Below, piece after piece: positions 1 to 19,826 of a DNA stretch of 19,826 nt (position 1 is its first letter; every line of letters begins with the position of its first letter). The DNA is from Bacteroidaceae bacterium (lineage in GTDB: Bacteria; Bacteroidota; Bacteroidia; Bacteroidales; Bacteroidaceae). Made by a program: the position numbers and the translations under genes. Under the pieces are notes generated by a model, which saw nothing but the letters and a program-made list of their open reading frames with translations, was not told where the DNA came from and did no database searches. The stretch covers positions 1 to 19,826 of the forward strand of contig JAEEOD010000130.1 in the NCBI GenBank assembly GCA_016284115.1, in the 5' to 3' direction.

Positions 1-2604
1 ACCTGTCAATTCTGGCCAAATCTTGGCAAACAAACCCTTATCCATCACCACATTTCCCTGCAACACGGTGTTGGGCAGTGTTCCTGCTATCAAAAGTTTT
101 ACCTCGTTGTCGTGAGCGTCTGTATAATACAAAGTATCTCCCATGCTCTTCATCAATCCCCAGGTCAACACGGTTTCATCCACCAATACAGGATAGGCCG
201 AAACATCATTCTTTAATCGTTGAAGATCGTACCCGGCATAATAGTCAACGGAGAAAGATTGGGTAAACTGTTCCATATCAACACCCAAGACTGTAGGAGT
301 ACTCACTTTATTCAAATTAAGACAAGAAGCATCATCGGCACTATAGCGTAAAAATTGGAGGATATGAGCATCAGCTGGTAGTTCTGTCAGCGACAACTGT
401 TTCTTTCCCTCTGGTGTATTGATGTCATAATAAACTGGTACAGAAGTCTCCATCAACAAAGCATACCCTCCTGTACCCTGCCCAAGCTGACTGCTATCAG
501 CAAAACTCCTTCGATTTAAACCAACGGCAAAGACAATAAACACGCCTAAGACCAAAGGCAAGAATGAAGCTACAGCTTGCTTACGAACAGCATACAAGGA
601 ACTCCAGACAAGTTGTTTCCTTTCTGTTACCTGTGGAGAAAGTCCTCGAACAACAAGCAAATAAAAGCCAGCCACTGTCGCCAAAGCAATCCACATACAA
701 CCAGTTATAACAAATAGGATTATTGACTGATAGAAAATATTGATAAGCAATACGAGTAAGGTCAGTATGCCCAGAAAAACTAACCACACGAACAGCTTTC
801 TTTTAGAGGTATTATTTTGATCTACTATTGGTTTATCTGCAATAGCCTTACCAATAGTCCATCTCAGTAAGCCTAATGAAAGTGCCACACTCACAAGGGT
901 TCCAATACAAAGTGTCAGCATATTGGCATAAACGCCAAAGCCGTCAGTCTGGGTCGCACCTTGCCACACATTTCCCAATAAATACATGATGACAGCAGTG
1001 TAAAGCAATCCGAATAATACTCCTATCAGGGATGCAATCAATACGATTGGCAATGCTTCTCGCCAAAGCAATGAGGTTATTCGATGAGACGAATAGCCTA
1101 ACGACTTCAGTAAGTTTATTTCCGCAGTTCGTTTAGCATACATTTCTGATAAAGGACTATACATCAGCAATAAGGCAGATACAATAATAAAGAAACCCAA
1201 AGCCAGGAAAAGACCGGAAAAATCTACTCCGTTCATGGCACCAAACAAACCAGACTCACGAGGATGAACCACTTGTACGCCAAACATGGAAGCATGCAGA
1301 CCGGAGAGGTCTGGATTAAGGTCATCAACACGCAAAGCAGTGGCTGTACCAAATACGGTTTCCCAATCTCCAGCCACTGTCTTATAAGGAACCAAGGCCT
1401 TAGGCGTAGAACGGTAATCTGTCCAGTACTGTTCATCCTCATCAGTAATCAATTTCATGTCAATTGGCAAGTCGCTATCCCAATCTGTGCATCGCTCCAC
1501 ATCAGACAAGCCTGGGAAATCAGCACTCAAATGTCCGTCATCCACAAAATCCTGTAAAGGAATGACTGCGGCAACTCTCAACAAGACTGAATCTGTTTCC
1601 AGTTTCTTCAAACCTTTCATTTTATAATAGGTGACATTCACCCTATCACCCACTTTCGCATGAAGACGATGGGCTGCATAGTCTGACAGCAGTATCTTAT
1701 CATCCGCTAAATCATATTCACCATATCTGTCTAATGCCGTAACAAATGAATAAGGAATGGAAATATCATTTAGGGAAATGAAATTGGCCAAGTAAGAATA
1801 CAAACGGTTGGGGCGCTGGTTCTGTCCACTCAATTTGCTGACCAGTTCCTGTTGCATGAAGACCCTGTCTGTGGTTATCTCCCTAACAGAGCCTACCGTT
1901 TCTACATGGACACCAGCCAAATCATTATTCCATAAATCATTGATTTCTTCATACGAAATCATCTGCTCAGCAAGGATCATATTGACTTTGTGATCAACAC
2001 CAAGCAGTGCTGCCAGTACAGTACGATTAACGAACACATTCAACGGCAACACCTGTTCATTCTTCAGACTGATATTTCCTCCCTCGGATGCAGAAATTAC
2101 TCCCTCACAACCCAACCGGATGCTGGTGGTATAGCTTTGTGTAACGAATAATGAGCCAGAGGGAACCATACCATTATTGGCTAATCGCAAGACAATGTCA
2201 TCCTTTGAGTTCTCCAACTCTTTTGACAAAGGGACATTGATCTTTGAAGTTCCTTCTTCAACTGTTATTCCAGATGCAAGTTGGTCTATGCCCCATACGG
2301 TTACGGGTATCAAGCGGCCATGATCAGCAATGAAACCATCAGTCATAATTACCCCTTGACAGCCAGATTGAAAAACAGGCAGTTGAAGTATAGTCTCGTC
2401 TATATAACCAGTACGGCTATAGATAATTGACTCTGTTTTACCCAACCGATCTGTCACTCTCTTGACCAAAGTCATTCTCACAGAATCCCCTACCATCAGA
2501 CTGCCCACGATGGATGCCACCGTCATGAGCGATGCCAATGCAACAAACACATAATAGCGTTTGTAAAACCGAAGGTTACTGTTTATGACCTGCCAATTCT
2601 TCAT
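1..2604 (-). CDS. FtsX-family ABC transporter permease, 3' end outside window
   Basis: An uninterrupted frame runs from the ATG at 2604 to the left edge: 868 codons with no in-frame stop. Hydrophobic helices lie at about 18-39, 461-483, 517-542, 561-580, 604-624, 628-652 and 678-696. A soluble region of about 420 residues follows helix 1, and another soluble region begins after about 697. This fits the duplicated FtsX layout (1 + 3, two connecting helices, 1 + 3), with three more helices expected beyond the edge. Residues around 484-512 (MYSPLSEMYAKRTAEINLL, then KSLGYSSHR) match the conserved cytoplasmic stretch of the family. It should be the membrane partner of the ATPase encoded just upstream. 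The first 39 residues are typical inner-membrane anchoring. What is moved is unknown. Confidence 0.85.
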   Translation of the reverse strand, partial: MKNWQVINSNLRFYKRYYVFVALASLMTVASIVGSLMVGDSVRMTLVKRVTDRLGKTESIIYSRTGYIDETILQLPVFQSGCQGVIMTDGFIADHGRLIPVTVWGIDQLASGITVEEGTSKINVPLSKELENSKDDIVLRLANNGMVPSGSLFVTQSYTTSIRLGCEGVISASEGGNISLKNEQVLPLNVFVNRTVLAALLGVDHKVNMILAEQMISYEEINDLWNNDLAGVHVETVGSVREITTDRVFMQQELVSKLSGQNQRPNRLYSYLANFISLNDISIPYSFVTALDRYGEYDLADDKILLSDYAAHRLHAKVGDRVNVTYYKMKGLKKLETDSVLLRVAAVIPLQDFVDDGHLSADFPGLSDVERCTDWDSDLPIDMKLITDEDEQYWTDYRSTPKALVPYKTVAGDWETVFGTATALRVDDLNPDLSGLHASMFGVQVVHPRESGLFGAMNGVDFSGLFLALGFFIIVSALLLMYSPLSEMYAKRTAEINLLKSLGYSSHRITSLLWREALPIVLIASLIGVLFGLLYTAVIMYLLGNVWQGATQTDGFGVYANMLTLCIGTLVSVALSLGLLRWTIGKAIADKPIVDQNNTSKRKLFVWLVFLGILTLLVLLINIFYQSIILFVITGCMWIALATVAGFYLLVVRGLSPQVTERKQLVWSSLYAVRKQAVASFLPLVLGVFIVFAVGLNRRSFADSSQLGQGTGGYALLMETSVPVYYDINTPEGKKQLSLTELPADAHILQFLRYSADDASCLNLNKVSTPTVLGVDMEQFTQSFSVDYYAGYDLQRLKNDVSAYPVLVDETVLTWGLMKSMGDTLYYTDAHDNEVKLLIAGTLPNTVLQGNVVMDKGLFAKIWPELTG

Positions 2605-3266
2605 TGTAGGATTCCGTCTTTTAATAACAACTCCCTATCTGCCACTGACGAGGTCTCATTCGAATGTGTCACCATCACAATGGTAGTATGCAACGTTCTG
2701 TTGATTTCTGCTAACAGTTGGGCTACATCACGGGCATTCTCACGATCTAATTGTCCTGTGGGCTCATCTGCCAGAAGTAATGCCGGCTTCATAACCAATG
2801 CCCTGCACACTGCCACCCTGCTTGCTTCGCCACCAGACAAAGTGGAAGGATATTGCTGAGACAAATGCTCTATATGCGTCAACCGCATCAGTTCTACGGC
2901 ATAAGCCAGCTGGTCCTCAGAACTTTGTTCTTGAAAAGCCAGTGTTGGTAACAGGATATTCTGTGAAACAGTTAATTGTGGCATCAAACGATGGTCCTGA
3001 AACACAAAACCAATCTTCTCATTACGAACTGTGGCCAAATCTATTTCACTATTCGTAAGAACAGTTCCATCTAAAACATATGTACCACTATCAGGCAAAA
3101 GCAAGGTACCCAGTATATTCAAGAGGGTAGTCTTTCCAACACCTGACTGTCCCTTTATGGCCAAAAATTCGCCCTTATCAAGATGCAGATTCAAGCCTCT
3201 GAGTACTTGATTGATGCGATTATCACCATCTTGGAAAGTTTTCACAATGTCTTTCAGTTCTATCAT
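2601..3266 (-). CDS. ABC transporter ATPase, LolD/MacB type
   Basis: 221 residues, the usual length for this subfamily. It has Walker A GQSGVGKT (39-46), Q-loop Q90, signature LSGGEASR (143-150), Walker B LLLADEPTG (163-171) with D-loop residues just after, and switch His H201. These are the complete set of a working ATPase. Family knowledge: LolD/MacB-type ATPases pair with FtsX-fold permeases that use mechanical force to release lipoproteins, lipids or peptides on the periplasmic side, rather than passing substrate through a pore. The next gene is such a permease and overlaps by four bases (ATGA). The substrate is not evident; the terpenoid product or the propeller lipoprotein encoded just upstream are candidates by context only. 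Confidence 0.93.
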   Translation of the reverse strand: MIELKDIVKTFQDGDNRINQVLRGLNLHLDKGEFLAIKGQSGVGKTTLLNILGTLLLPDSGTYVLDGTVLTNSEIDLATVRNEKIGFVFQDHRLMPQLTVSQNILLPTLAFQEQSSEDQLAYAVELMRLTHIEHLSQQYPSTLSGGEASRVAVCRALVMKPALLLADEPTGQLDRENARDVAQLLAEINRTLHTTIVMVTHSNETSSVADRELLLKDGILQ

Positions 3267-3284
3267 ATAAAACCATATTATAAG

Positions 3285-4430
3285 TTAGTTACCACTCCCT
3301 ACACCAAAGCAAAGCAAAGTTCCCCTAGTAGTCAATATCAGGAAATGATCTTTAACAATGGCAGGAGAAGCTACTATATCTTCACCTGAATCATATTCCC
3401 ACAAGAGCGTACCATCGTCTTTATCAAATATATTCACAATACCTGTTTTGGTACACACAATCACCTTATCCTTACAAATAACAGGAGAGCTCTCCCCTAC
3501 ATTTCCCTTCAACATCTGGCGCCATTTGACTTCTCCACTTTTTCTGTCTATAGATGACAGGTAGCGTCCACCTGTATTAACAAAAATCCTTTTTTCATCT
3601 ATCGCCGGCACTGATACATTATCGCCATCATCATCGGTAGCCTCTACCAGTTTCCTGTGGTTGACGATACCGTCTCCTCTCAACTGTAACTCATAAATAT
3701 TGCCGGAATAGTCACCTACATAAGCAAAATTACCAGAGATAGCTGGAGAACAAGGGATGTAGTTATCTAATTGCAGAGAATCAGTCTGCAAACCGGTTTC
3801 ACAATTAATAACCCTTATCCATTGGTCGCATCCTCCAAAGATAACGAACTTATTCCACAACGCAACGGCACCGTTCAGATAATAGCCCGACTCAAACTGG
3901 CTAAGCAAATGACCATCGCGTTCATCAACGCAATAGAGATAGTTATCATAACTGCCGAATACGATAGCATTGTTACCTGCAAAATTCACATGATTGGGTG
4001 AGGCGGATATCTGCCCTAATGTTTCGAAGCTCCAAAGAGTATCTTGTTTGGTAAGAGAAATGGTTTGCAATTTTCCTTCGATGGTACCGATATATAATAC
4101 GGAATCACGAATCATAGGAGTTGCCTCCACCAAAGTCTTCAAATCATAGAAAAAGACTTCCTCGCCTTGCAAATCTACTCCAAACACCTTACCCCTACGG
4201 TCACACCAATAGGTCACGCCATTGAGCACGACAGGCGAACTGACTGTACGGCTTTTTGCTTGAAATGTCCATAACAAAGAAGGCTTCTCCGGCAATGAGG
4301 TACGAGTATAACCGCTCAATTGTTCGTCACCACGGAATAAAGTCCAATCGAGTGTACCACCGCTTTCAGACTGTCCAATGCATGCAGACAATCCAGCAAT
4401 CAACAATAATATGTAAAATAACTTTTTCAA
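3285..4430 (-). CDS. PQQ-like beta-propeller lipoprotein
   Basis: 381 residues. A lipoprotein signal ends in the lipobox LSAC with the acylated cysteine at residue 17. After a short Ser/Gly-rich stretch the propeller opens with WTLFRGDEQLSGY and PSLLWTFQAKS. Blades are then marked by VDERDGHLLSQF, NCETGLQTDSL, RKSGEVKWRQ and DKDDGTLLWEY. It is therefore lipid-anchored in the periplasm or on the outer membrane; an acidic surface-export tag after the cysteine is weak, so surface display is not claimed. It is the fifth propeller of the operon and sits between the iron-sulfur genes and the ABC transporter (18 bases to the ATPase). It may receive or present a lipid substrate, or be a Bam-like scaffold. 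Enzymatic activity is not established. Confidence 0.86.
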   Translation of the reverse strand: MKKLFYILLLIAGLSACIGQSESGGTLDWTLFRGDEQLSGYTRTSLPEKPSLLWTFQAKSRTVSSPVVLNGVTYWCDRRGKVFGVDLQGEEVFFYDLKTLVEATPMIRDSVLYIGTIEGKLQTISLTKQDTLWSFETLGQISASPNHVNFAGNNAIVFGSYDNYLYCVDERDGHLLSQFESGYYLNGAVALWNKFVIFGGCDQWIRVINCETGLQTDSLQLDNYIPCSPAISGNFAYVGDYSGNIYELQLRGDGIVNHRKLVEATDDDGDNVSVPAIDEKRIFVNTGGRYLSSIDRKSGEVKWRQMLKGNVGESSPVICKDKVIVCTKTGIVNIFDKDDGTLLWEYDSGEDIVASPAIVKDHFLILTTRGTLLCFGVGSGN

Positions 4431-4433
4431 ATC

Positions 4434-5405
4434 TTAATCATCTATGAATAAAGCCCACGTAGGACAAAGCTTAGCCAAATCCTCAGAAACATGTTCCTTA
4501 CTTTCATCTGGTAGGACAACCTGCATACCAAATCCTCGTCCCTTGAAAGTGAATCCATCTTGTGAATTATATACACACAAGCCACAGCGGATACATTTGG
4601 CTGGTTCAAACCACAATCTTCCTGTAATATGCTGCTTAATCTTGAACGGCAAACTGGAAGAAACACCAAAACGAGGTGACTTGATACCCTCATCTGTGGC
4701 ATATCCCCTCAGCTTGCACTCATGACGAGCCGAGCAGGCACAATGGATACAGCGTGACTTAACACTAATACTTGCTTTCAGCCACTCCTGCTCATGTGGC
4801 GAGAAGCGTCCCACCTTGGAGTTGAACCTATTCTTATCCTTCACTTCTGCATCATTAGGATTTCCTGTAACAGGCAAATCATCCATAGCGGACAGCTCAC
4901 GCATGATCGCTTTTATCTCTACATGTTTGTCAACTGTTCCTCGGCGACAAATCTTCTCACAAGGGCCCTTACATTCATCACAGGCTATTTCAGGCAGTTT
5001 AAACACAGCAGCCATGAGTTTGCGAGCCTCTTCATACTGGCCTTTATCATAATGGTAAAGTACACCTTCCACATTCAGGTTATAAGGACAGGCAATCACA
5101 CAAGGAGCCTCACAGTCAGCACGATGATCGCTCAATAGCAATTCGAGCGACATCTTGCGCATCTCATGTATCTCATCGTTGTCTGTCTCTATTTCCATGC
5201 CATCCATTACCAATGATGAGCAAGAAGGCAGCAACTGTCCATTGTTTAAATTCTTCACAATACACACCATACATGAGGGCTTATGTTCTTTACCTGGCAC
5301 ATAGCACATGTGAGGTATCTTAACACCAGCTTTCTTAGCGACCTCCAGAATCGTCTCACCCTCGTGAGCCTCAACTTTTATTTTATTAATCGTCAATTCT
5401 ATCAT
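4434..5405 (-). CDS. Multi-cluster iron-sulfur protein: [2Fe-2S] + GltD-type N-terminal domain + ferredoxin
   Basis: 323 residues. A plant-type [2Fe-2S] domain comes first (C34, C45, C48, C62), as in NuoG/HydA/HoxU. Next is SDHRADCEAPCVIACP, with C98/102/106 and C142/145/149/153, which resembles the helical Fe-S domain at the front of the glutamate synthase small subunit and dihydropyrimidine dehydrogenase. A cysteine group follows (C219/222/224/230), then a last ferredoxin-like site (C271/274/277 with C314 in LCPTWALF). The FAD/NADPH domain that normally follows the GltD-type domain is missing, and so is any H-cluster or molybdopterin domain, so this is an electron relay rather than an oxidoreductase by itself. 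Its pairing with the NuoEF-like gene (1-base gap) suggests they form one complex. It is cytoplasmic, with no signal peptide. Confidence 0.85.
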   Translation of the reverse strand: MIELTINKIKVEAHEGETILEVAKKAGVKIPHMCYVPGKEHKPSCMVCIVKNLNNGQLLPSCSSLVMDGMEIETDNDEIHEMRKMSLELLLSDHRADCEAPCVIACPYNLNVEGVLYHYDKGQYEEARKLMAAVFKLPEIACDECKGPCEKICRRGTVDKHVEIKAIMRELSAMDDLPVTGNPNDAEVKDKNRFNSKVGRFSPHEQEWLKASISVKSRCIHCACSARHECKLRGYATDEGIKSPRFGVSSSLPFKIKQHITGRLWFEPAKCIRCGLCVYNSQDGFTFKGRGFGMQVVLPDESKEHVSEDLAKLCPTWALFIDD

Positions 5406-5406
5406 A

Positions 5407-7800
5407 TCAATCTGTTTTCAGCGGCACCTTCTTGATTGCCTGATAACAACACTCGTCAATACACAACCCGCATTGCACACATCTCTTTACGTCAATTTCA
5501 TGTTTCTTATAAGGAGTATATTCTATAGCATCACTCGGACATGCTTTTGCGCATTTGGTACAACCTACACAATCGTCAGTCACCACATACTTAACCATAT
5601 CCTTGCAGGTACCAGTTCTGCAGATTCCCTGTAAGTGTTCCTCATACTCATCCCGAAAATATTTCAAGGTTGACAATACGGGATTAGGCGCCGTCTTACC
5701 TAAGCCACACATAGCACCTTTGGTAATGCTAACAGCAAGTTGCTCCAGCATATCAATATCCTCTTTTTTCCCCTTACCAGAGCAAAGTCTGTCAAGTATA
5801 TCCAGCATTCTCCTGATTCCCACGCGACAGAAAGTACACTTTCCACAAGACTCATCACATGTGAAGGTAGTAAAGTACCTCGCCACATCTACCATGCAAC
5901 TGTCCTCGCCCAAAACCACCAGACCACCAGAACCCATAATAGCGCCCAGTCGCTTCAATGCCTCATAATCCACTTGAGTGTCACAAAGGCTGGCTGGGAT
6001 ACAACCTCCAGAAGGGCCACCAGTCTGCACTGCCTTCAGTTTGGCATTGCCTTCCATACCTCCACCGATTTCATCAAGAAGCTGGTTCAATGTGGTTCCC
6101 ATAGGCACTTCAATCAAGCCGCCATGATTAACTTTCCCCACCAGAGCGAACACCTTTGTGCCTTTACTGCTTTCTGTTCCCGTTTCAGCATATGCCCTAG
6201 CTCCATGGTTAATGACATAGCTCACTTGACTCAAAGTCTCAACATTATTAATTAAGGTTGGACATCCATAAAGGCCTGATATAGCTGGATAAGGAGGACG
6301 GAGACTGGGAAATCCGCGTTTACCTTCAATCGACCCGATGAGAGCTGTTTCCTCACCACAGACAAAAGCGCCAGCTCCCTCAAATATACGGATATCGAAA
6401 TCGAATCCAGAGCCCATAATGTCTTTACCTACAAGATTCCTCTCACGGCACATCTCCAATGCCTTTCGGGTACGGATCACAGCCTGAGGATACTCAGCAC
6501 GAATGTAGAATATACCATGATGGGCACCTACCGCATATCCAGCAATGACCATTCCCTCTATTACGCGCAGAGGATAAGACTCCAGCAGGATACGATCCAT
6601 AAATGCGCCTGGATCACCCTCATCGCCATTACAGATAATATATTTTTCAGGATTAGTCTGTTGAGCCACCATATCCCATTTTCGTCCAGAGGGGAAACCA
6701 CCGCCTCCACGACCTCGCAATCCACTATTCAAGATTTCATCTATAATATCTTTCTGTGTCATTTCCTTCAGTGCTTTCTCCAGCGCCTTGAAGCCACCTC
6801 TGTGCAGATACTCATCTATATCAAGAGGTGACATAAGACCGTAACCTTCAGTTGAAACACGTTTTTGACCAGCGAAGAAATTATTAATAGTTCGCGTGCG
6901 ATGTTCATCTGCTGTCCACACGCTACTGTTCCATATCTCATCCGTCTGAAAATGGTCAATGTGGCGGAACAGTTTGTTCCTTAGCCTTAACAGACGGTTT
7001 TGGGGTTCAAAATGATGTAGTAAGATTTCCCTGACATCTTCAGGATTGACATTAGGATAACGTTTGATGGTTCCATCTGGCAAAGCCAAGTCAATCAAGG
7101 GCACCTGATTACATGCACCTACACAGCTGACCGGCTTAATTCGCACATTAATGCCTAATTCCTTCTTAGCTTCCATTACAGCCTTATAGATATCGGCTGT
7201 TCCACTCGCCTGACAGCAGTTCTCCATACCCAGACGTATCTCACCTTGTACTTCAGTTTCATCACCTCCATTAGCTTCTTTTTCCTTCTGATCAGCATAA
7301 GCCTTAAAGGCATCTATTACTTCCATCACCCTTCCAGGCTGCACATGCCCATATATTTTCTGGTCAATCTGTACGACAGGAGCCAAAGCACAACAACCCA
7401 GACAGGCAACTTTCTCAATAGAGAACTCGCCATCATCAGTCGTTATACGATCTTCTTTCATTTTCAGCTCACGACGCATGGAATCATAAACATTATCAGC
7501 CCCCTTCACATGGCAAGCCGTACCGACACATACCTTGATGACATGTTTACCGTAAGGCATCAGACGGAACTGAGAATAGAAGGTTGAAACGCTCATCAAT
7601 TGTGCACGGTCTATCTCTGTACGTTCATACACCCTCTCCAGTACATCACTTCGCAGATAGTTAAATTCCGCCTGCAATGCCTGGAGCAACGGAATGATGA
7701 TGTCACGTGTAGTTCCGATGCGGTCGATGATCGCATCTGTACGGGCTATCAACACTCGTTTCTCTTCAGCAGCTTTCTTTATACAATCCTTATCGCACAT
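5407..7800 (-). CDS. NuoE-NuoF fusion, NAD(P)H-oxidising flavin/Fe-S subunit (HndC/HydB-like)
   Basis: 797 residues from the ATG at 7800; an in-frame TTG at 7821 would run into the previous gene, so the ATG is preferred. Domains in order: a NuoE-type [2Fe-2S] thioredoxin fold (C91, C96, C133, C137); a second thioredoxin-like domain (C195/C196, C226, C230); NuoF with the NADH/FMN glycine loop LRGRGGGGFPSG (361-372) and NGDEGDPGAFMDR (391-403); the N3-type [4Fe-4S] site (C652, C655, C658, C698); and a two-cluster ferredoxin end (C744/747/750/754 and C774/777/780/784). This is the diaphorase of bifurcating FeFe hydrogenases or formate dehydrogenases with NuoE fused on. It should exchange electrons between NAD(P)H and ferredoxin-like clusters in the cytoplasm. 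No hydrogenase H-cluster or molybdenum gene is in the window, so its acceptor is unusual. One base separates it from the next ATG. Confidence 0.93.
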   Translation of the reverse strand: MCDKDCIKKAAEEKRVLIARTDAIIDRIGTTRDIIIPLLQALQAEFNYLRSDVLERVYERTEIDRAQLMSVSTFYSQFRLMPYGKHVIKVCVGTACHVKGADNVYDSMRRELKMKEDRITTDDGEFSIEKVACLGCCALAPVVQIDQKIYGHVQPGRVMEVIDAFKAYADQKEKEANGGDETEVQGEIRLGMENCCQASGTADIYKAVMEAKKELGINVRIKPVSCVGACNQVPLIDLALPDGTIKRYPNVNPEDVREILLHHFEPQNRLLRLRNKLFRHIDHFQTDEIWNSSVWTADEHRTRTINNFFAGQKRVSTEGYGLMSPLDIDEYLHRGGFKALEKALKEMTQKDIIDEILNSGLRGRGGGGFPSGRKWDMVAQQTNPEKYIICNGDEGDPGAFMDRILLESYPLRVIEGMVIAGYAVGAHHGIFYIRAEYPQAVIRTRKALEMCRERNLVGKDIMGSGFDFDIRIFEGAGAFVCGEETALIGSIEGKRGFPSLRPPYPAISGLYGCPTLINNVETLSQVSYVINHGARAYAETGTESSKGTKVFALVGKVNHGGLIEVPMGTTLNQLLDEIGGGMEGNAKLKAVQTGGPSGGCIPASLCDTQVDYEALKRLGAIMGSGGLVVLGEDSCMVDVARYFTTFTCDESCGKCTFCRVGIRRMLDILDRLCSGKGKKEDIDMLEQLAVSITKGAMCGLGKTAPNPVLSTLKYFRDEYEEHLQGICRTGTCKDMVKYVVTDDCVGCTKCAKACPSDAIEYTPYKKHEIDVKRCVQCGLCIDECCYQAIKKVPLKTD

Positions 7801-7802
7801 AA

Positions 7803-9614: not shown

Positions 9615-9621
9615 ATTAATA

Positions 9622-11441: not shown

Positions 11442-11446
11442 GGCTA

Positions 11447-11451
11447 TCCTC
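11447..11451 (-). promoter_or_regulatory. GAGGA ribosome-binding site deciding the polyferredoxin start
   Basis: Reading on the minus strand, GAGGA lies five bases before the ATG at 11441. The alternative start is a TTG at 11453 that overlaps the previous stop codon. The good Shine-Dalgarno spacing and the leader KRRDFF, which sits near the N-terminus either way, favour the ATG. Bacteroidota use Shine-Dalgarno sequences weakly, so this is supporting evidence only. Confidence 0.45.
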
Positions 11452-12514: not shown

Positions 12515-12532
12515 AATATATCTATTTCTCGT

Positions 12533-13966: not shown

Positions 13967-13979
13967 TCTCCGTATCCGT

Positions 13980-15191
13980 TTATTTTACTTGATAGGCCAT
14001 CAGGCTTTCTCCATGACGTACATACATTACACCATTGTAGATGACAGGATGCGCCCAATGCTGTTCCTCGCCCATGGTAACCTTCTCTCTACTCACAATA
14101 TCCAGTTTAGTTTCATCTGGGTTAACGAGTAACAACTCACCAGTACTTGTATAGAGATACAACATACCGTCTGCTAATACTGGGACTGCTTGCGCTATAC
14201 GCCCAACCCACAGCTGATTACCAGTGTTCCAATCCAGACAAGCAAACTGATGCCGGCTCTCATTATATCCATAAACCTGATTGTTCAATTTCACAATGCC
14301 AGAATATCCGTTCTCTATACTTTTGTTTTCCCAAACCTTAGATACACTCTTACCGCTGTTATCCAGTTTCAGCATCAGCGAACCTGTGTTGTTTCCACTC
14401 GTACACATAATCATTCCGTCACTGTATAAAGGAGAGTTAGCATGAGTGTCCCAACGGTCTGCATAAGGGTATGACCAAAGCAATGTCCCATTCGTAGGAT
14501 TGATGCCCAACACACTCTTAGCAGTCATGGTAATGATCTGAGGGATATTTACATCATCCACAAAAATAGGAGAACAATAAGCAGCTATATCACCGTTTGC
14601 CGGCGTACTCCAAATCAGTTCACCTGTCAGCTTATTCAGAGCCACGATATTATGCTGTTTACCTCCAACAGTAGCAATCACCTTGTTACCTATTATCAGA
14701 GGAACCTCATTCATGGCGAAGTTGATCATCTTACCCCCAAGTTCGTTCACCAAATCTTTCTTCCACAACAACTCTAAAGTTCCTTCAATTAGACAATAAA
14801 GAACGCCAAAACCACTTTCAATGAAAACCAGGCCCTCATCTACAGTCACAGCGCCTCTTGCACCGCTATAGTTGCCTTTCCATTCTTTGCCATAGTTCAC
14901 CTGTCTCAACAGATTTCCATTCAGGTCGAACACATGCAGCCATCCCTGTTGTCCATCTCTCATGCCATTGACGTATATTTTATCATTAGCTATAGACACA
15001 GAAGAATAACCTTCACCTAACTGGTCGTAATGCCAAAGCATCTTCAGTCCGCCATCAGGCCACTTCTTCATTAATCCAGTTTCATGATAAACGCCATCAC
15101 GTTTTTCCCCTCGCCACTGAATGTTTTTTTGAGCCAAAGCCGAAGAACACACAAGTGCCAATGCAGCCATTATTAGTCCTAAAGTTTTCAT
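13980..15191 (-). CDS. Secreted PQQ-like (BamB-type) beta-propeller protein
   Basis: 403 residues with a clear Sec signal peptide (about 1-20, cleavage after SSALA). The mature protein begins with the WRGEKRDGVYHETG motif common at the start of PQQ-like propellers. Repeated blade signatures follow, each with a hydrophobic strand, D/N-x-x-TG and a Trp, for example LNKLTGELIW, INPTNGTLLWS, LDWNTGNQLW and STGELLLVNP. It is therefore probably a periplasmic or surface seven- or eight-bladed propeller. Such proteins act as scaffolds (BamB) or as quinoprotein dehydrogenases. I see no C-terminal cytochrome and cannot establish PQQ ligands, so the family name does not prove PQQ binding. It starts 16 bases after the terpene cyclase. 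The enzyme/scaffold distinction is open. Confidence 0.85.
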   Translation of the reverse strand: MKTLGLIMAALALVCSSALAQKNIQWRGEKRDGVYHETGLMKKWPDGGLKMLWHYDQLGEGYSSVSIANDKIYVNGMRDGQQGWLHVFDLNGNLLRQVNYGKEWKGNYSGARGAVTVDEGLVFIESGFGVLYCLIEGTLELLWKKDLVNELGGKMINFAMNEVPLIIGNKVIATVGGKQHNIVALNKLTGELIWSTPANGDIAAYCSPIFVDDVNIPQIITMTAKSVLGINPTNGTLLWSYPYADRWDTHANSPLYSDGMIMCTSGNNTGSLMLKLDNSGKSVSKVWENKSIENGYSGIVKLNNQVYGYNESRHQFACLDWNTGNQLWVGRIAQAVPVLADGMLYLYTSTGELLLVNPDETKLDIVSREKVTMGEEQHWAHPVIYNGVMYVRHGESLMAYQVK

Positions 15192-15207
15192 ACCACTTAT
15201 TATCTTT

Positions 15208-16926
15208 TTATAATCTATGTTTTTTTATTTGTTTCAGTGCATTCAGAAGAAAAGCAACATTATATAAGTCTTCTGAATACCATAACCTGGCAAAATATAA
15301 ACCGATGGGCTCACGTTTATACAAATTACCATGCCGATAAGTCTGAAATAGGAAATTAAAACCTTCCTCTATCACATCACTGGGAACCTCTCCGTAAGGA
15401 GCTAACGCTGCCAAAGTTCGTGCTGTCAGTGTTACCTTAGATGTTATGCCCTTGGCACCTCCCCACCCTCCATCTGGGTTCTGTACTGACAACAAATATG
15501 CAACTCCTTTCTGCGCAAGTTTCTTCACCCGGTCATTGTCCGACGAACTGAAATAATCCACAGCAGTAGCGGTACCATATACAGGTGAATGCTCATCTGT
15601 AGCCTGTTGGTCACCAAACCATAACGGAATCCATGCACCTTCTTGGGTTTGCGTTTTTTCCATGAATGACACCAAGCGCTGAGTGCTTCTCTTACATCTT
15701 AAATACAAATCCGTAGGTAACTGATTCTTCCATATCTCAAAAGCAAAGTATGTGTGTGCAGTCAAATCAGGACTACTTTGGTCAAAAGGCAGTTTCGTCC
15801 ATCCTTTACAAAAGGTAGGAATCCCCCCATCATGATTCTGCAAATCCAACAGCCATTTTATACCATTACCTATTTCATCACTATAAGTTCCGCCTGTCAA
15901 TACATGCAAGGCGATTAATGCTCCTGGTGTATCATCTGCATCAGGAACAGAGCCTGACAGGTCTGTCCATCCCCACCCGCCAGGTTGAGCTCCAGTAAAA
16001 GGATGCACCTCTTTCAAAGCATTGGCTTTCAGTTTTTGAATAAAATAATCCCTCTCTGGTATGTCTTCATCCAAAGCCCGTAAACTTAACGATGTCACCC
16101 AACAGGCCAAATCTGTATCAATCGGCCAGGCACCATCTTCTCGGATCGTGTCCACCAAGAATTTGGCTGCTTTTTGTGTCACCTCATGCTCATTAAAACC
16201 TGCCCCACTCATACACATACCCACGAAAGCTGTTAACGGAGCTGCCTCCAAAAAACCTCCGTCATCGGGTTGCAACTTCTCCAAAACTTTTAGGCAACGG
16301 GGAATAAATTTATCCATCACGAAGGAATAAAAATTCCTTTTCCCTTTCTTATATCTTAAAATGCCAACTGCAATCAATGCAGGGATGGCATAACTTACCA
16401 CAGGTAACTGCAAAAAGCGGAACAGTTTCTGAGGCAACACAGCCAGTTCAAAAGGCAAGGGGGGAATCTTGTTCCACTGAGAAATCAAGCCTGCCAGTCC
16501 ACACATAGAAAGAATAGGAACAGAGAAAGTCAGGTCTGTGCCATAGTAATTCAGCACCCCCTTTATCAGTTGGTCTTCACTATCTCCCCCCAACTTATCC
16601 TGTAGATAATTCCTGACCTTTTGCGGTGGCGTATCTACTGCATACAACGCAGCGTAAGAGAGTAGCGTAGCAGTCATATTGGCAGGGCTCTCCTCACTAT
16701 CTCCCCATGCACCTTCTTCGGTCATGGTATTCTTTAGCCATGATGCCCCTTTAACTATATATGAACTATATTTCTCCCTATCAATCAAATAAAGCGCAAA
16801 AACAGAAACAGATGTAGAGATGGCGCTTGAAGACAAGTGTCCACGCCACATCTCACCAGGTTTTCTTGCATTTATCAACCTGCCTTTAACTTCTGTAATC
16901 ATTTCATCTATTTGCTCTATTCTCAT
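15208..16926 (-). CDS. Squalene-hopene-cyclase-like class II terpene cyclase
   Basis: 572 residues, shorter than classical squalene-hopene cyclases (about 630) and nearer to bacterial class II diterpene cyclases. The class II catalytic acid motif DADD is at 329-332, in the context GGWGW...VPDADDTPGAL, matching the DxDDTA region of the family. The family-like SPDLTAHTY follows at 385-393. QW-type repeats are visible: EEGAWGD (70-76), DGGFLEA (222-228), EDGAWPI (263-269), QNHDGGI (363-369), QEGAWIP (428-434) and QNPDGGWGG (482-490). The C-terminus (PIGLYFARLWYSEDLYN) recalls sporulenol/hopene cyclases. It should protonate and cyclise a polyprene or prenyl diphosphate; whether that is squalene, GGPP or a longer chain is unknown. 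No squalene synthase gene is visible here. A hydrophobic stretch (about 173-191) fits membrane association. Start ATG overlaps the previous stop (ATGA). Fold assignment is firm, substrate is not. Confidence 0.85.
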   Translation of the reverse strand: MRIEQIDEMITEVKGRLINARKPGEMWRGHLSSSAISTSVSVFALYLIDREKYSSYIVKGASWLKNTMTEEGAWGDSEESPANMTATLLSYAALYAVDTPPQKVRNYLQDKLGGDSEDQLIKGVLNYYGTDLTFSVPILSMCGLAGLISQWNKIPPLPFELAVLPQKLFRFLQLPVVSYAIPALIAVGILRYKKGKRNFYSFVMDKFIPRCLKVLEKLQPDDGGFLEAAPLTAFVGMCMSGAGFNEHEVTQKAAKFLVDTIREDGAWPIDTDLACWVTSLSLRALDEDIPERDYFIQKLKANALKEVHPFTGAQPGGWGWTDLSGSVPDADDTPGALIALHVLTGGTYSDEIGNGIKWLLDLQNHDGGIPTFCKGWTKLPFDQSSPDLTAHTYFAFEIWKNQLPTDLYLRCKRSTQRLVSFMEKTQTQEGAWIPLWFGDQQATDEHSPVYGTATAVDYFSSSDNDRVKKLAQKGVAYLLSVQNPDGGWGGAKGITSKVTLTARTLAALAPYGEVPSDVIEEGFNFLFQTYRHGNLYKREPIGLYFARLWYSEDLYNVAFLLNALKQIKKHRL

Positions 16927-17792
16927 AAAGAACCCAATGCCAATAGTCCATAAAATACATATTCCATATCACTCCGGTCATCAAATAAGGTTGCCGAGAA
17001 TCCCCCGTTTTCGCTAAAATGAGCTTCAATAAAATCCAAAGGCTCATATTTAGGTCTGATACCGTAATTTTTCAAAGCAAAAAGCGATGTGGCGGTTGAC
17101 AACAAATCTGGAATAGGAGCCAATGCATCAGCTTTGAAACCTCCGTTTTCTTCCTGCATATCCTTCAACGCAACAGCCTCAACGTGATCATAAACTGCCA
17201 ATTGTGCCTTTATCATCAAGGCTGCCGCTGTAGCATTAGCAGAGGCTGTCTCACAATCTTTCAGATTAGCATATCCTCCGCCCTTTACTTTATAGTCTTG
17301 CAAATCTATCAGTGTCTGTTTCTTGCCAATCAACCTGACATTGTAATCCTCCAACATCGAGAGCCATAGGAACTGCGTATAAGGTGAATGTCTGTCCCCT
17401 TGGGGGAAATCACAGAAGGAGTCAAGCGTACGTACATTGTTAACACTCCATACATTCAGCAACATTCCCACCATTCCGTCAGACACCAGCCTTTGCAGCT
17501 TCTTGCATTTCATCCAAGATATATAGTGTATCAGATCAAGACTTTCTGCATCAAAACCACTCAGAAACGTCCTCATCTTGTCAGCATCAAGCCTGATACC
17601 CTGCATGTATGCTACAAGCCATCCGAAAGCTGTATAATACAAATCTTCCTTACCACCTTTGCCAACAAAAGCACCACATTCTGTTTGCTGAGACAACACG
17701 AAGGCAAGAAGTTTGCTTCTTGCATCTTGCGTAAGACGTTTGTTAGCCTTTCGCAAAGCATTCATCATCTTAGTAGAAATGCTGGTCTTCAT
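16923..17792 (-). CDS. Prenyltransferase/squalene-oxidase-repeat protein (small alpha-toroid)
   Basis: 289 residues, with no signal peptide, so probably cytoplasmic. Repeats typical of alpha-alpha toroid proteins are visible: CGAFVGKGG (39-47) then DLYYTAFGWL, KGGGYANL (170-177), ENGGFKADAL (215-224) then DLLSTATSLFAL, and ENGGFSATLF (261-270). This is the fold of protein prenyltransferase beta subunits and of terpene cyclase halves. No class II DxDD acid motif is present, and I cannot identify the Asp/Cys/His zinc triad of protein prenyltransferases, so catalysis by this protein alone is uncertain. It starts 9 bases after the DUF116-prenyl synthase stop (TAG) and overlaps the cyclase start by four bases (ATGA), implying translational coupling. 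It may be a partner subunit of the cyclase, a prenyl-chain-binding protein, or a prenyltransferase with altered chemistry. Confidence 0.75.
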   Translation of the reverse strand: MKTSISTKMMNALRKANKRLTQDARSKLLAFVLSQQTECGAFVGKGGKEDLYYTAFGWLVAYMQGIRLDADKMRTFLSGFDAESLDLIHYISWMKCKKLQRLVSDGMVGMLLNVWSVNNVRTLDSFCDFPQGDRHSPYTQFLWLSMLEDYNVRLIGKKQTLIDLQDYKVKGGGYANLKDCETASANATAAALMIKAQLAVYDHVEAVALKDMQEENGGFKADALAPIPDLLSTATSLFALKNYGIRPKYEPLDFIEAHFSENGGFSATLFDDRSDMEYVFYGLLALGSL

Positions 17793-17801
17793 AACACTAA
17801 T

Positions 17802-19361
17802 CTATCTTAAAATCCGTTCTGTAATCCTAAACAAAAGTCGTTTCAGTTCTACCTGCTTCACGTTATATAAAGCCGCTAAAGCTTGCTGATGATAATCTTC
17901 GGCCAAATTCCTCGCCTTTTCCAAGGCATTATTTAGAATGGCCTGGTTTTGTGGATCACGGAAAAATTCCTTAATATTGCAGGCTGCAAACAATCTTTGC
18001 AAAAAAACTGCGTCATGATTATTTTGCTCACAAACGATTGCCAATACAGCTGACGGACGAATCTCCAATGGTTCATCATTGTCAAAATCTTCGATGTCAT
18101 CCAGCAATTGGTAAGTTATACCCAATGCTGTAGAATAAGTCTGAAATACTTTCCGTAATTGTTCATCGTCACCAGCACAAATCAATCCTAACAGTAGGGA
18201 TACCTCAAAAGCAGGCACCGTCTTGTTTCTGAATATATCTAACACAAAGTCGAGAGTGAACGAATGCGGATTCTTGCTCCAGTCAAGTTCCATACCTTGT
18301 CCTCTGCAAAGGGAAACATGAGCTTCAGCCACAGCTGACAGCAACGCTTTGGACTCGCAGGTGGAGAGTATTCGGTATCCCTGGCCTAACAGATAGTCGC
18401 CCACATTGATTGCTACAGGTACGCCGCAAGTGGCATGAACAGTAGGTTTTCCATATCGTTCACTATCATTATCCTGTATATCATCATGTACCAAAGAAGC
18501 CTTGTGAAAGCATTCCACCGCAATAGCGGCGCGTTTCACTTCTTCTGAAGGTATATCTTCATTTGTCAAAGAAGAGAATACAGCAGCAACAAGATAAGGC
18601 CTCCAGCGCTTTCCATCACCACTAAGCCAATCGAGTGCTGTAGTAGAGCTATGGCTTTCACTATCAGTGAAATACTGCTTCAAGGAGTCACGTTCGAACC
18701 ATGATTTTGATAGTTGACGTAATTCGTCATAGTCCATAAAGTAAGCGTCTGTGTCAGAACGCAGTCCCATCAGTTGCATCACGTAGCCATAATCCACCTG
18801 CGTGTCTTTGCATCCATCATAATTCAATGGGATGGCTATTCCGGGCACTGCATTGCGTATCAGTAAAGGAAACGCCTTCTCCAGGGAATTGAGACAACTC
18901 ACTCCTATCACAGCATCCACTACCCCATTCTGAATAAGACCCACAACAGAAGTAAAACCTTCAGCCACGATACTCATCATACCCAGCTCATCAGCCTTTT
19001 CCTGCAAATCAGGTATAGGACAATTGCCACACCTGTGGCAGAGCAAACCCAGTTCGTCCATTTCAGCCTGACACTTAGCAGAGTTACTCAAACATTTTGG
19101 CAATAGCAGGATACGCCTTTCAAACGGAATGGAAGCAATGGTATCTTTCCATATCTGGTTATGGATTTCCACCATCATCCACCCCCGATAAGCAGGATTG
19201 AGTTCATATTGTGAAATCAACTCATCAGCAACCGCCTCCAGGTCCTTCATAGAAAGGGGAGGGACAACTGACAACGAGCCGACCAACTCGCTGATAAGTG
19301 TCCTTATCTCTGTTCTTTCCTTGAAGGATAGTGGTGCTATCTGTTTACTTTCATTTTCCAT
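17802..19361 (-). CDS. Fusion of DUF116-like domain and polyprenyl diphosphate synthase
   Basis: A 519-residue two-domain protein. Residues about 55-205 resemble DUF116: seven cysteines (C90, C97, C108, C111, C114, C156, C184), with the core LLCHRCGNCPIPD and a VIGVSC strand; the cysteines probably bind metal or an Fe-S cluster. Residues about 225-519 are an all-helical trans-isoprenyl diphosphate synthase: GKRWRP (250-255) for IPP binding, first Asp-rich motif DDIQD (293-297), and second DDIED (421-425). This half should condense IPP with an allylic diphosphate. Small residues (A288, S289) before the first motif argue against a C15 stop and fit C20 or longer, but product length cannot be read reliably. 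Oddities are RYG where the family usually has RRG (residues 302-304), and an RPS.VLAI segment after the second motif in place of the usual GK-containing loop. It probably supplies the downstream cyclase. The ATG lies 6 bases after the preceding stop. Confidence 0.88.
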   Translation of the reverse strand: MENESKQIAPLSFKERTEIRTLISELVGSLSVVPPLSMKDLEAVADELISQYELNPAYRGWMMVEIHNQIWKDTIASIPFERRILLLPKCLSNSAKCQAEMDELGLLCHRCGNCPIPDLQEKADELGMMSIVAEGFTSVVGLIQNGVVDAVIGVSCLNSLEKAFPLLIRNAVPGIAIPLNYDGCKDTQVDYGYVMQLMGLRSDTDAYFMDYDELRQLSKSWFERDSLKQYFTDSESHSSTTALDWLSGDGKRWRPYLVAAVFSSLTNEDIPSEEVKRAAIAVECFHKASLVHDDIQDNDSERYGKPTVHATCGVPVAINVGDYLLGQGYRILSTCESKALLSAVAEAHVSLCRGQGMELDWSKNPHSFTLDFVLDIFRNKTVPAFEVSLLLGLICAGDDEQLRKVFQTYSTALGITYQLLDDIEDFDNDEPLEIRPSAVLAIVCEQNNHDAVFLQRLFAACNIKEFFRDPQNQAILNNALEKARNLAEDYHQQALAALYNVKQVELKRLLFRITERILR

Positions 19362-19367
19362 ATATAA

Positions 19368-19826
19368 TTATCCATAAGCTCCGAAACCAAAGAAATATCT
19401 TTTCTTAAGGAACTTGTAAAATACATTCTGTTCGGGAATCAAATCATCTTTCATATCATGACCTGCCACACTATTCATCGCTTCATATTCCTGCATCACC
19501 GTGCCTCTTGAGGTGGTATCCAGTGCTCCTTGCTGCTGAAGGAATTCCACCATACGCTGAGGATGCTCCATAATGATGCAACCTCTGCTTCCTTCTGCCG
19601 TTACCTTTCTGAAGTCAGCAAGAAACTGGGAGTTATTGAAAATATCTGTCAGATTGGAAGCATCCTCATTCAACCATTCCTTTGCCATTTGCATGGGTGG
19701 ACAGAACTCCACTGCCCCACTGGGTGAGATATGATGGCTCATACCAGTTGCTGCAGGGCACATAGCCCTGCCTTGATCATCCCAATATGTATCAATGATG
19801 AAAAGCGGGGCGTTTTTTCGTTGTTC
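19368..19826 (-). CDS. Radical SAM/SPASM-like protein, C-terminal part (5' end outside window)
   Basis: The reading frame stays open to the right edge, adding 21 codons upstream of the first internal ATG (19763), so that ATG is not the start and the visible 152 residues are a C-terminal fragment. Visible features are a Cys-Pro (MCPAATG), an SPASM-like segment (HHISPSGAVEFCPP) and a third cysteine (SRGCIIMEHP). The end is hydrophobic and aromatic (RYFFGFGAYG). From memory this resembles the auxiliary-cluster end of radical SAM proteins, where the cysteines bind a second [4Fe-4S] cluster; the CxxxCxxC core that would prove it lies outside the window. It ends in TAA and the next gene starts 6 bases later, so the two are probably co-transcribed. 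Its position ahead of isoprenoid genes suggests a radical modification of the terpenoid or a partner. A non-radical-SAM iron-sulfur protein is possible. Confidence 0.6.
   Translation of the reverse strand, partial: EQRKNAPLFIIDTYWDDQGRAMCPAATGMSHHISPSGAVEFCPPMQMAKEWLNEDASNLTDIFNNSQFLADFRKVTAEGSRGCIIMEHPQRMVEFLQQQGALDTTSRGTVMQEYEAMNSVAGHDMKDDLIPEQNVFYKFLKKRYFFGFGAYG

Follow-up and report, generated by a model that had tools for sequence, protein, structure and literature searches.

The extracellular electron-transfer locus of Listeria carries its own demethylmenaquinone branch. It brings an isoprenoid gene, NADH oxidation, a lipoprotein and a transporter together in one locus, a working likeness to the operon described here, but the Listeria system is based on flavin and quinone and the present one on Fe-S proteins and propellers. 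The electron-bifurcating Bfu enzymes (BfuABC/HydABC and NfnABC) share with the operon a NuoE/BfuC, an FMN-binding NuoF with a C-terminal 2[4Fe-4S] domain, a site of three cysteines and one histidine, and a BfuA partner resembling the N-terminus of NuoG. The differences are that BfuC and BfuB are fused here, that the BfuA-like NuoGn has no catalytic domain, and that NapH, a Tat ferredoxin and propellers accompany the core in the operon, none of which is among the third substrates named in the available text of PMC9304861. NapGH, NosR and the flavinylated NapH-like relays (PMC8238504, available part) likewise combine a membrane Fe-S protein bearing two CxxxCP motifs with a Tat polyferredoxin and modular partners, whereas in the present locus a Bfu core is encoded, no FMN-binding domain is found in the Pfam matches and no terminal reductase was recognised. 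Squalene-hopene cyclase and the hopanoid genes (HpnCDE, HpnH) agree with the operon in the two-domain class II fold, the DxDDT acid and a radical SAM neighbour; here, in contrast, a fused DUF116-synthase is present instead, the squalene-hopene cyclase score is low, and squalene/phytoene synthase (PF00494) occurs in just 3 of 20 cluster genomes. A DUF116-polyprenyl synthase fusion, Psta_0175, was noted in PMC5898192, where DUF116 was proposed to serve electron transfer; D116PPS of this operon has the same domain fusion, and cyclase, propeller or Bfu neighbours go unmentioned in the available part of that paper. No description of the operon was found in the open-licence literature searched.

The window, that is, the whole stretch of 19,826 nucleotides that was analysed, holds 15 long ORFs in an unbroken row from 1 to 19826, and all of them, with every coordinate given below, lie on the minus strand. 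The first gene (the C-terminus of a radical SAM protein) and the last (an FtsX permease) are both cut by the window ends. The first-pass annotation had described a 15-gene same-strand run with gaps of at most about 18 bases and three ATGA overlaps, and on recount the largest gap was 18 bases: from gene to gene the spacing runs 6, 9, -4, 16, 13, 18, -4, -4, 7, -19, 1, 3, 18 and -4 bases, and the four 4-base overlaps comprise three with ATG starts (halfT/SHC, fd4/NapH and ABC/FtsX) and a fourth where fd4 begins at its listed TTG. The starts of fd4, NuoEF and lpprop are TTG codons taken from the longest ORF, so the real starts may be internal. Terminator-like matches are at chance level (16 versus 14.4 in shuffled sequence, sd 3.9); promoter-like matches on both strands are above the shuffles (64 versus 43.9, sd 6.6), and promoters may therefore lie within the operon. 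Three modules can be told apart: T, for terpenoid, with the radical SAM protein, DUF116-polyprenyl synthase, half-toroid and class II cyclase; E, for electron transfer, with propellers, NapG/NapH-like Fe-S proteins, fused NuoE/F and truncated NuoG; and X, for export, with a lipoprotein propeller, a LolD-like ATPase and the FtsX permease. Pfam backs the polyprenyl synthase, class II cyclase, NapH/NosR-like, NuoE/F, ABC and FtsX identities, and the five propellers of the first-pass annotation hold up as four BamB/PQQ-like proteins and one NHL-like protein, the latter below the Pfam cut-off. The operon appears to encode an undescribed machine that passes electrons between the cell interior and proteins beyond the inner membrane, joined to genes for a ring-bearing lipid; the stretch probably stems from a rumen bacterium. 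Since gene content and order are seen again in other phyla, the arrangement is non-random.

Module E is very probably an envelope-directed Bfu system, a function read from its gene content. NuoEF (5407..7821; PF01257, PF01512, PF10589, Fer4) is a BfuC-like NuoE fused to a Bfu/HydB-like NuoF with the C-terminal 2[4Fe-4S] domain, and NuoGn (4434..5405; PF13510, PF14691) is a BfuA/NuoG N-terminal-like Fe-S protein. The best PDB matches of NuoEF are NfnB 9n5u, 9bov_B, 8oh5_B and HydB 7q4v; its nine top matches were deposited as NfnB, HydB, HoxF and the like, with complex I ranking below. NuoGn best matches the N-termini of 9bov_A, NfnA 9n5u_A and 8oh5_C. Across 30 aligned rows of NuoEF, the cysteines of the BfuC [2Fe-2S] cluster C1 (C98/C103/C140/C144, within PF01257) are present in all 30, those of the B1 [4Fe-4S] cluster beside FMN (C659/C662/C665/C705) in 90-93%, and those of the B3/B4 2[4Fe-4S] domain (C751/754/757/761/781/784/787/791), which align to HydB/NfnB, in 93%. 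In the B2 [2Fe-2S] region at the BfuB N-terminus, the window has C202, C203, C233 and C237, with C203 and C233 alone exceeding 85%. A further set, C607/H729/C734/C739, stands at 93% in the 30 rows, is aligned in the five PDB sequences compared, and would fit the site of three cysteines and one histidine, its ligands being assigned by alignment; that site, for Zn (or B5), is absent from Nqo1 according to the available text of PMC9499530. Where a respiratory-complex diaphorase had been proposed, the PDB matches, Fer4 domain and cysteines make Bfu-type bifurcating core the better name. NuoEF was also tried as complex I NuoF, and its 471.5 bits against TIGR01959 fall under the equivalog cut-off of 558.65.

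The predicted path beyond the core begins with NapH (9622..10863; PF12801 twice, NCBIfam NosR/NapH below cut-off), a membrane Fe-S protein of the NapH/NosR C-terminal kind, and fd4 (10860..11453; Fer4 families, a weak NapG match and alignment), a Tat-type, NapG-like polyferredoxin with 17 cysteines. Alignments bear out the pairing of a Tat polyferredoxin with a CxxxCP membrane protein, and C82, C84 and C178 are additionally invariant in NapH (30 rows). With the model of the NapH subfamily of NapGH quinol dehydrogenases, TIGR02163, NapH scores 69.9 bits, under the cut-off of 213. In the 15 proteins of the window, the Pfam matches with E up to 0.001 include neither an FMN-binding domain nor ApbE. 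Four propellers belong to the module: prop1 (13980..15191; PF13360), secreted, with a signal-like N-terminus and a copy number that differs among relatives; prop2 (12533..13966; PF13360), N-terminally anchored; prop3 (7803..9614; PF13360), BamB-like behind N-terminal segments that are hydrophobic by hydropathy; and nhl (11450..12514), NHL-like, with a Tat-like N-terminus and a weak NCBIfam ScyF match. In 32 rows, R161, N162, H163, S166, R167, T168, Y214, Q217, C218, H261, S263 and Q360 of prop2 are conserved at 93-100%, and the GCCNP motif of nhl (G248, C249, C250, N251, P252) is invariant.

Module T is likely to make a cyclic polyprenoid that is not derived from squalene. The radical SAM fragment (19368..19826), whose start lies outside the window, gives no Pfam match and was identified through its orthologue at locus L001, a full-length protein of 405 aa with PF04055 (82% over the fragment); the nearest NCBIfam models of that orthologue are NirJ2/NirJ1/NirJ/AhbC, with HpnH weaker and all far under cut-off. 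D116PPS (17802..19361; PF01976 and PF00348) has A288-S289 before its first Asp-rich motif, and Ala-Ser stands there in 25 of 25 aligned sequences, which we take as the sign of a long-chain product. halfT (16923..17792; PF00432 slightly under cut-off) is a single-domain alpha/alpha toroid of the type II terpene-cyclase/prenyltransferase-beta fold, its AlphaFold model (mean pLDDT 93.5) lying nearest to 8paj and RabGGTase-type beta subunits. SHC (15208..16926; PF13243, PF13249) is, on its DADDT acid motif and the two-domain alpha/alpha fold of its model (pLDDT 85), a class II terpene cyclase; the model is nearest to 1sqc (TM 0.78) and drimenyl-PP synthase, and the DxDDT catalytic acid motif is found in 42 of 43 rows of the cyclase tree. 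Tried as a squalene-hopene cyclase, it scores 62.6 bits with TIGR01507, whose equivalog cut-off is 431.1. The cluster genomes with PF00494 are G006, G007 and G009 in a sample that leaves the window's own genome outside, and 7 of 14 controls were positive; this scarcity makes squalene an improbable substrate. The window encodes neither a terminal reductase nor a head-group transferase, and no additional enzyme for terpenoid tailoring.

Module X comprises lpprop (3285..4430; PF13570, PF13360), a probable lipoprotein propeller with an LSAC lipobox-like N-terminus, the LolD/MacB-type ATPase ABC (2601..3266; PF00005), and the long FtsX-type permease (1..2604; PF02687), which has ten hydrophobic segments and ends outside the window. 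That the ABC genes go with those for electron transfer is supported, GT4 and ABC following the E genes in 11 of 11 extended loci, with FtsX recognised in 10. In the L121 genome, T genes including halfT occur with ABC and FtsX and without fd4. Scored as the ATPase of the LolCDE lipoprotein exporter, ABC stays below the equivalog cut-off (LolD TIGR02211, 201 bits against 307.75).

The reading we favour, though at somewhat less than even confidence, is a modular anaerobic system in which NADH and ferredoxin would together power an outward flow of electrons to a lipid or cofactor held by propellers, with T supplying a ring-capped polyprenyl lipid; we infer its electron direction, substrate and lipid alike. 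NuoEF and NuoGn would oxidise NADH jointly with reduced ferredoxin and pass electrons through NapH and the Tat-exported fd4 to the anchored and secreted propellers, where a lipid or cofactor in the conserved channel mouth of prop2 would be reduced. The polyprenyl diphosphate made by the DUF116-synthase would be long and all-trans; the half-toroid and the DxDD cyclase would jointly protonate it at the far end and close that end, and the radical SAM protein would modify it. The role of lpprop and ABC/FtsX (plus the GT4 glycosyltransferase in stand-alone relatives) would be to load an amphiphilic molecule and draw it out of the inner membrane. In the window's lineage, the ring-capped lipid may be the molecule reduced by E or carried by X, and that the terpenoid itself serves E/X as substrate or carrier can be put forward only tentatively. 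Doubtful, but worth stating, is a wider proposal of an undescribed anaerobic, energy-coupled envelope redox class, built on confurcation of NADH and ferredoxin by a fused Bfu core, with a NapGH-type relay feeding propellers that hold a novel cofactor or lipid at the place of PQQ in quinoproteins, a pathway for a ring-capped long-chain polyprenyl lipid as dedicated membrane carrier having been joined in some lineages and later lost in some. The range named for that class takes in Bacteroidota, Planctomycetota, Victivallales and a Chitinispirillia MAG. The operon would take electron bifurcation from enzymes of the cytosol to reactions beyond the inner membrane, offer a role for DUF116 proteins and for propellers that have so far gone unexplained, and add a squalene-independent terpenoid to gut and rumen bacteria.

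Electrons might instead be imported, a propeller (prop2 or another) acting on a periplasmic substrate as a quinoprotein-like dehydrogenase that feeds fd4, NapH, NuoGn and NuoEF in turn, with bifurcation to NAD+ and ferredoxin. HydABC-type enzymes are reversible (PMC9304861, available text), and in the available text of PMC8238504 flavinylated NapH-like systems are said to feed reductases or draw from oxidases and, in 172 genomes, to occur alongside an ethanol oxidase. Polar residues at the blade starts of prop2 are conserved, and prop3 (32.1 bits) and lpprop (30.8) exceed the PF01011 (PQQ) cut-off of 26.7 as whole proteins, each without a single passing stretch. Against this, prop1 (21.7) and prop2 (22.7) fall below that cut-off, BamB-type PF13360 scores far above PF01011 in all four BamB/PQQ-like propellers, the NCBIfam PQQ models are far under theirs, the Pfam matches of the window include neither a cytochrome c nor an FMN-binding domain, and the donor potential would have to approach that of H2 or formate. 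Import is considered unlikely. TIGR02111 (PqqC) matched in 0 of 27 genomes and in none of the control genomes.

Linkage speaks for the favoured reading. An E gene is present at 63 of the best 80 cyclase loci; of the 17 without one, 10 stop less than 1.5 kb downstream, and in the other 7 the downstream DNA runs to 3.1-10 kb. The combination of T and E genes was found in three bacterial phyla, with near-identical gene order in Bacteroidales, L072/L074 (where no NuoGn was seen) and the planctomycete L117. Co-occurrence of cyclase and fd4 (both/cyclase only/fd4 only/neither) was 23/5/8/87 in the first genome sample, 14/32/7/146 in Planctomycetota and 9/2/33/203 in Bacteroidales, with Fisher p values, which ignore shared ancestry and genome completeness, of 1.0e-13, 7.3e-6 and 2.3e-6. 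Of 11 non-Bacteroidota cyclase genomes, 10 have fd4, two of them previously known as linked. The expected neighbourhood linkage across phyla is kept in Bacteroidales, two Victivallales-type loci and 2 of 14 Planctomycetota genomes carrying both (distance at most 15 kb). What stands of the single system first proposed is linkage and above-chance co-occurrence; an obligate single pathway does not, with fd4 lacking cyclase in 33 of 42 fd4-positive Bacteroidales-sample genomes and cyclase lacking fd4 in 32 of 46 cyclase-positive Planctomycetota. Because E so often occurs without T, it must have a function independent of the cyclase product.

These counts also bear on a slightly less probable alternative than import, in which the terpenoid of T orders the membrane or belongs to the cell surface and has no part in E+X, an envelope redox system that shares only regulation and habitat with T. 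Many genomes do hold one module without the other, E+X by itself in many Bacteroidales and T by itself in many Planctomycetota, and besides the few close Planctomycetota pairs, cyclase and fd4 share a contig in 3 of 9 Bacteroidales-sample genomes with both; yet co-occurrence is above chance in three samples, unlinked cases included, and the same SHC-to-prop2 junction recurs in three lineages. Against the favoured reading, the trees call for the linked state to have changed no fewer than four times for NapH and three times for the cyclase. On balance, T and E probably act together.

Nocardia has a cyclic menaquinone. The third alternative, a quinone-type chain of the locus's own for respiration or extracellular electron transfer, in which T gives the ring-capped prenyl tail of a special quinone for NapH, draws on the naming of NapH as a putative quinone-binding subunit (PMC8238504, available text), on UbiA in 20 of 20 cluster genomes and on a cyclic menaquinone from Pyrobaculum (a reference title in PMC12145650), but it is the least probable of the three, as a head-group prenyltransferase is absent from the window, UbiA is off the cyclase contig in 6 of the 7 genomes with a known cyclase contig (G001-G006, G019), whereas in G004 it sits on the opposite strand at a distance of 7 kb, and E-only relatives would require a different quinone.

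As the marker of E, fd4 occurs in 42 of 247 Bacteroidales-sample genomes (about one in six) and 21 of 199 Planctomycetota (about one in ten). Mangrovibacterium marinum DSM 28823, Carboxylicivirga strains and Parabacteroides strains are among the carriers, and with such strain-named carriers lipid and redox tests are feasible.

All 15 consecutive open reading frames (ORFs) of the window lie on the minus strand, and the ORF listing and intergenic distances bear out the first-pass annotation in its description of 15 same-strand genes that are never more than 18 bases apart and overlap by ATGA at three junctions. The operon runs in the order rSAM (radical SAM, a fragment), D116PPS (a DUF116-polyprenyl synthase), halfT (a half-toroid protein), SHC (a class II cyclase), prop1, prop2 and nhl (propellers), fd4 (a Tat polyferredoxin), NapH, prop3 (a propeller), NuoEF, NuoGn, lpprop, ABC and FtsX (a fragment); the first four genes are here called module T, prop1 to NuoGn module E, and the last three module X. 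Among the matches listed, the closest loci by cyclase identity are in rumen-type Bacteroidaceae metagenome-assembled genomes (MAGs), namely L065 from yak omasum (78%) and L001 from goat reticulum (77%), which makes a rumen member of the Bacteroidaceae the probable source of the window. A viral scan with the cyclase profile gave 24 pattern matches, none a relative, and a plasmid tblastn search with D116PPS matched 340 records, 0 of which reached 80% query coverage (five rows among the matches listed).

The linkage of T and E recurs widely in relatives. Among the best 80 of at least 571 confirmed cyclase loci, D116PPS was present in 70, halfT in 69, at least one E gene in 63, and fd4 or NapH in 56; of the 17 loci in this set with no E gene, 10 have less than 1.5 kb of downstream sequence, and seven (L042, L046, L049, L069, L070, L077 and L078) show none in 3.1–10 kb downstream. 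The arrangement extends beyond the Bacteroidota. Two loci of Victivallales type, L072 and L074, read aquaporin-CobW-f8-rSAM-D116PPS-halfT-SHC-prop2-nhl-fd4-NapH-prop3-NuoEF-lpprop-ABC-FtsX, where f8 (a small Fe-S protein) was not recognised in L074 and NuoGn was seen in neither, and the planctomycete L117 reads D116PPS-halfT-SHC-prop2-nhl-fd4-NapH-prop3-NuoEF-NuoGn-lpprop-GT4-ABC-FtsX. At L118 the E genes precede the T genes. Across 11 cyclase genomes of Planctomycetota, Victivallales type and Chitinispirillia, fd4 was found in 10, two of which (G015 and G016) are the genomes of L072 and L074, and the one miss was G388.

Genome samples, whose order and family names were inferred from their centre genomes, were also scored for the cyclase and fd4, the latter with an E threshold of 1e-10 for the family sample (weakest match 9e-27) and 1e-30 elsewhere. 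The 123 Tannerellaceae genomes included 23 with both, 5 with the cyclase only, 8 with fd4 only and 87 with neither; the 199 Planctomycetota included 14, 32, 7 and 146; and the 247 Bacteroidales included 9, 2, 33 and 203. Fisher tests gave p values of 1.0e-13, 7.3e-6 and 2.3e-6, respectively, uncorrected for relatedness and genome completeness. Since completeness was not reported, the single-marker counts include MAG gaps. The two markers share a contig in 19 of the 23 Tannerellaceae by the listed places and in 3 of the 9 Bacteroidales genomes, and they lie within 15 kb of each other in 2 of the 14 planctomycetes. A class-wide sample was too thin, with the cyclase in 1 of 247 genomes, the centre genome itself.

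The modules are also found apart. Among the 42 fd4-positive Bacteroidales genomes, 18 fd4 places were examined, picked mostly for long contigs, and in 14 of them fd4, NapH, prop3 and NuoEF stand together; the genome of one of these 14 loci, L134, has an unlinked cyclase, and nothing in the genes flanking stand-alone E operons hinted at a function. Four cyclase-only Tannerellaceae loci were examined, of which L089 and L091 have prop2 and L088 and L090 stop soon after the cyclase. The rival that T and E are two unrelated neighbours has on its side fd4 without the cyclase in 33 of 42 fd4-positive Bacteroidales genomes and the cyclase without fd4 in 32 of 46 cyclase-positive Planctomycetota, and against it the linkage in relatives and the co-occurrence; the single system that the first-pass annotation had proposed is supported by the latter and weakened by the former. 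In one fd4-bearing Tannerellaceae genome, stop codons break the cyclase reading frame (G380:C52:24253-25957).

In the NapH tree, 27 Bacteroidales rows form a single clade (100/100), 22 of them linked and drawn from rumen, gut and marine isolates; nested within it are five Tannerellaceae rows without T, which read as probable loss of T, or possibly as MAG gaps. The order sample contributes a separate group (91/75) of twelve rows that lack T, and L072/L074, L117 and L118, all linked, are placed elsewhere, so that the tree forces at least four changes of linked state; the L118 row is untrimmed, L098 had no usable NapH, and row L120 is labelled 'Eonly', yet its genome, G464, has a cyclase. The cyclase tree groups the Bacteroidales, Victivallales type, Chitinispirillia and the planctomycete L080 (100/100), with L117 and L118 apart; its rows L071, L075 and L080 are labelled 'Tonly', yet their genomes carry fd4 elsewhere. 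The trees fit both repeated loss of an ancient linkage and more than one joining of the modules, and do not decide between them. L060 is 72% identical to the window in NapH, 81% in fd4 and 55% in the cyclase, figures that cannot tell exchange of T from faster change of T; module exchange is not borne out, because the cyclase tree still places L060 next to the window, though on a long branch and weakly supported.

Within module T, D116PPS is a polyprenyl synthase fused to a DUF116 domain. In 25 of 25 aligned sequences, Ala-Ser stands five and four residues ahead of the first Asp-rich motif, which, by analogy with octaprenyl diphosphate synthase, would suggest a long-chain product. The same fusion is noted in Pirellula staleyi, with a proposed electron-transfer role for DUF116 (PMC5898192). 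SHC matches PF13243/PF13249, its nearest folds are squalene-hopene cyclase and drimenyl diphosphate synthase, and DxDDT is present in 42 of 43 cyclase tree rows. Squalene is an unlikely substrate, because SHC falls below the squalene-hopene cyclase cut-off (62.6 vs 431 bits) and a squalene/phytoene synthase was found in just 3 of 20 cluster genomes (controls matched in 7 of 14), in two of them on a different contig from the cyclase (C18 against C10 in G006; a contig of more than 330 kb against one of 177 kb in G007). A hopanoid reading was rejected on the same score and on the 17 genomes without the synthase; the simplest candidate substrate is a polyprenyl diphosphate or a derivative of one. 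HalfT is a single-domain toroid resembling type II cyclases and RabGGTase beta; the Asp, Cys and His that we take to be the Zn ligands of Zn protein prenyltransferases are not conserved, so it shares only the fold with those enzymes and was rejected as one of them.

Upstream of module T, among the best 80 of at least 571 cyclase loci, f8 precedes the radical SAM gene in 48, and some relatives have a LytTR regulator (18 loci) accompanied by a histidine kinase (17; both, e.g., L001:2104-3917), an aquaporin (12) and a CobW-type GTPase (12). Weakly similar histidine kinase/LytTR pairs occur after FtsX in L144 and near the cluster in L154, and the aquaporin (MIP, with a Cys-rich tail) and CobW-type GTPase recur beside the system at L043:1776-3725, L072:3862-5804 and L153. 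Where planctomycetes lack fd4, the cyclase and D116PPS come after genes for a GcvH-like protein (PF01597 in L104) and a ferredoxin resembling f8 (L104:10985-12532 and L109:7986-9685).

The core of module E is best read as a member of the electron-bifurcating Bfu family (BfuABC/HydABC, NfnABC). NuoEF (804 aa) joins NuoE to a NuoF that carries a 2[4Fe-4S] domain at its C-terminus, and its nine best solved relatives, deposited as NfnB, HydB, HoxF and similar, outrank complex I; the HoxF chain of 8oh5 is presumably from the Stn complex. Clusters B1, B3 and B4 and the Cys/Cys/Cys/His site are 90–93% conserved over 30 rows. BfuBC clusters define the family, for which the excerpted account lists 17 BfuB clades without assigned function and names no NapH- or propeller-linked member (PMC9304861), and another states that Nqo1 does not conserve a three-Cys, one-His site found in HydB (PMC9499530). 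The NuoF score and the Bfu features rule against a complex I or diaphorase reading, and the NuoEF diaphorase suggested earlier gives way to a Bfu core. NuoGn resembles the N-terminal parts of partner A subunits and has no catalytic domain; bifurcation by NuoEF/NuoGn is predicted. NapH and fd4 align as a NapGH-like pair, NapH with three additional invariant cysteines (C82, C84 and C178). In prop2, conserved polar residues immediately precede the blade-starting proline in 4 of 8 blades as parsed, a putative ligand site that may be the place where quinoproteins hold PQQ; a PqqC search matched 0 of 27 genomes, and control genomes were also without a match. The propeller nhl (11450-12514) carries GCCNP at residues 248-252, with the vicinal Cys invariant in 32 rows from three bacterial groups. 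A flavinylated EET reading was rejected, as the Pfam hits of the window include no FMN-binding domain.

The module X genes lpprop, ABC and FtsX follow the E genes in the window. When 11 stand-alone E loci were followed further downstream, all 11 showed GT4 and ABC, separated by other ORFs in L147, and 10 showed FtsX. In three Phycisphaerae loci (L097-L099), lpprop, a GT4-like ORF (by eye), ABC and FtsX precede prop2, and the planctomycete L121 has T genes, halfT, ABC and FtsX together in a genome (G509) not among the 21 fd4-positive ones of the Planctomycetota sample.

Taken together, NADH and reduced ferredoxin would feed electrons into NuoEF/NuoGn, from which they would pass outward through NapH and fd4 to the propellers, while module X, with a predicted role for ABC/FtsX, would move an amphiphile and module T would, in the window's lineage, supply a ring-capped polyprenyl lipid, so that a terpenoid may be the molecule handled. 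We offer this whole scheme tentatively, at somewhat under an even chance. The outward direction is the likelier course in our reading; a rival is electron import from a quinoprotein-like propeller, and NapH-like relays are reported to be paired in some cases with reductases and in others with oxidases (PMC8238504). In a further rival, the lipid would be a dedicated cyclic-tailed quinone. Every component of the locus has known kin, and a search of the open-licence full-text literature found no description of the combination or of the E+X operon, which is weak evidence of absence.

Some smaller observations may be added. One Prevotellaceae MAG (Hm464_bin62) carries the cluster twice, as L055 and L066, which lie on separate contigs. 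Related ORFs of family f18, which we take to be DUF1016/YhcG-like, are inserted within or adjoin the cluster in L007, L017 and L078. L009, from a MAG titled Eubacteriales, has identities to the window nearly equal to those of the Parabacteroides locus L008, and the MAG is probably mis-binned. Distant fd4 and NapH cousins with an NHL-like hit adjoin a PhnD-like protein (PF12974), probably a lipoprotein, that contains a TACSC/TACAC stretch (L139:1-5359 and L140:1-5425); these may form a related but different system.
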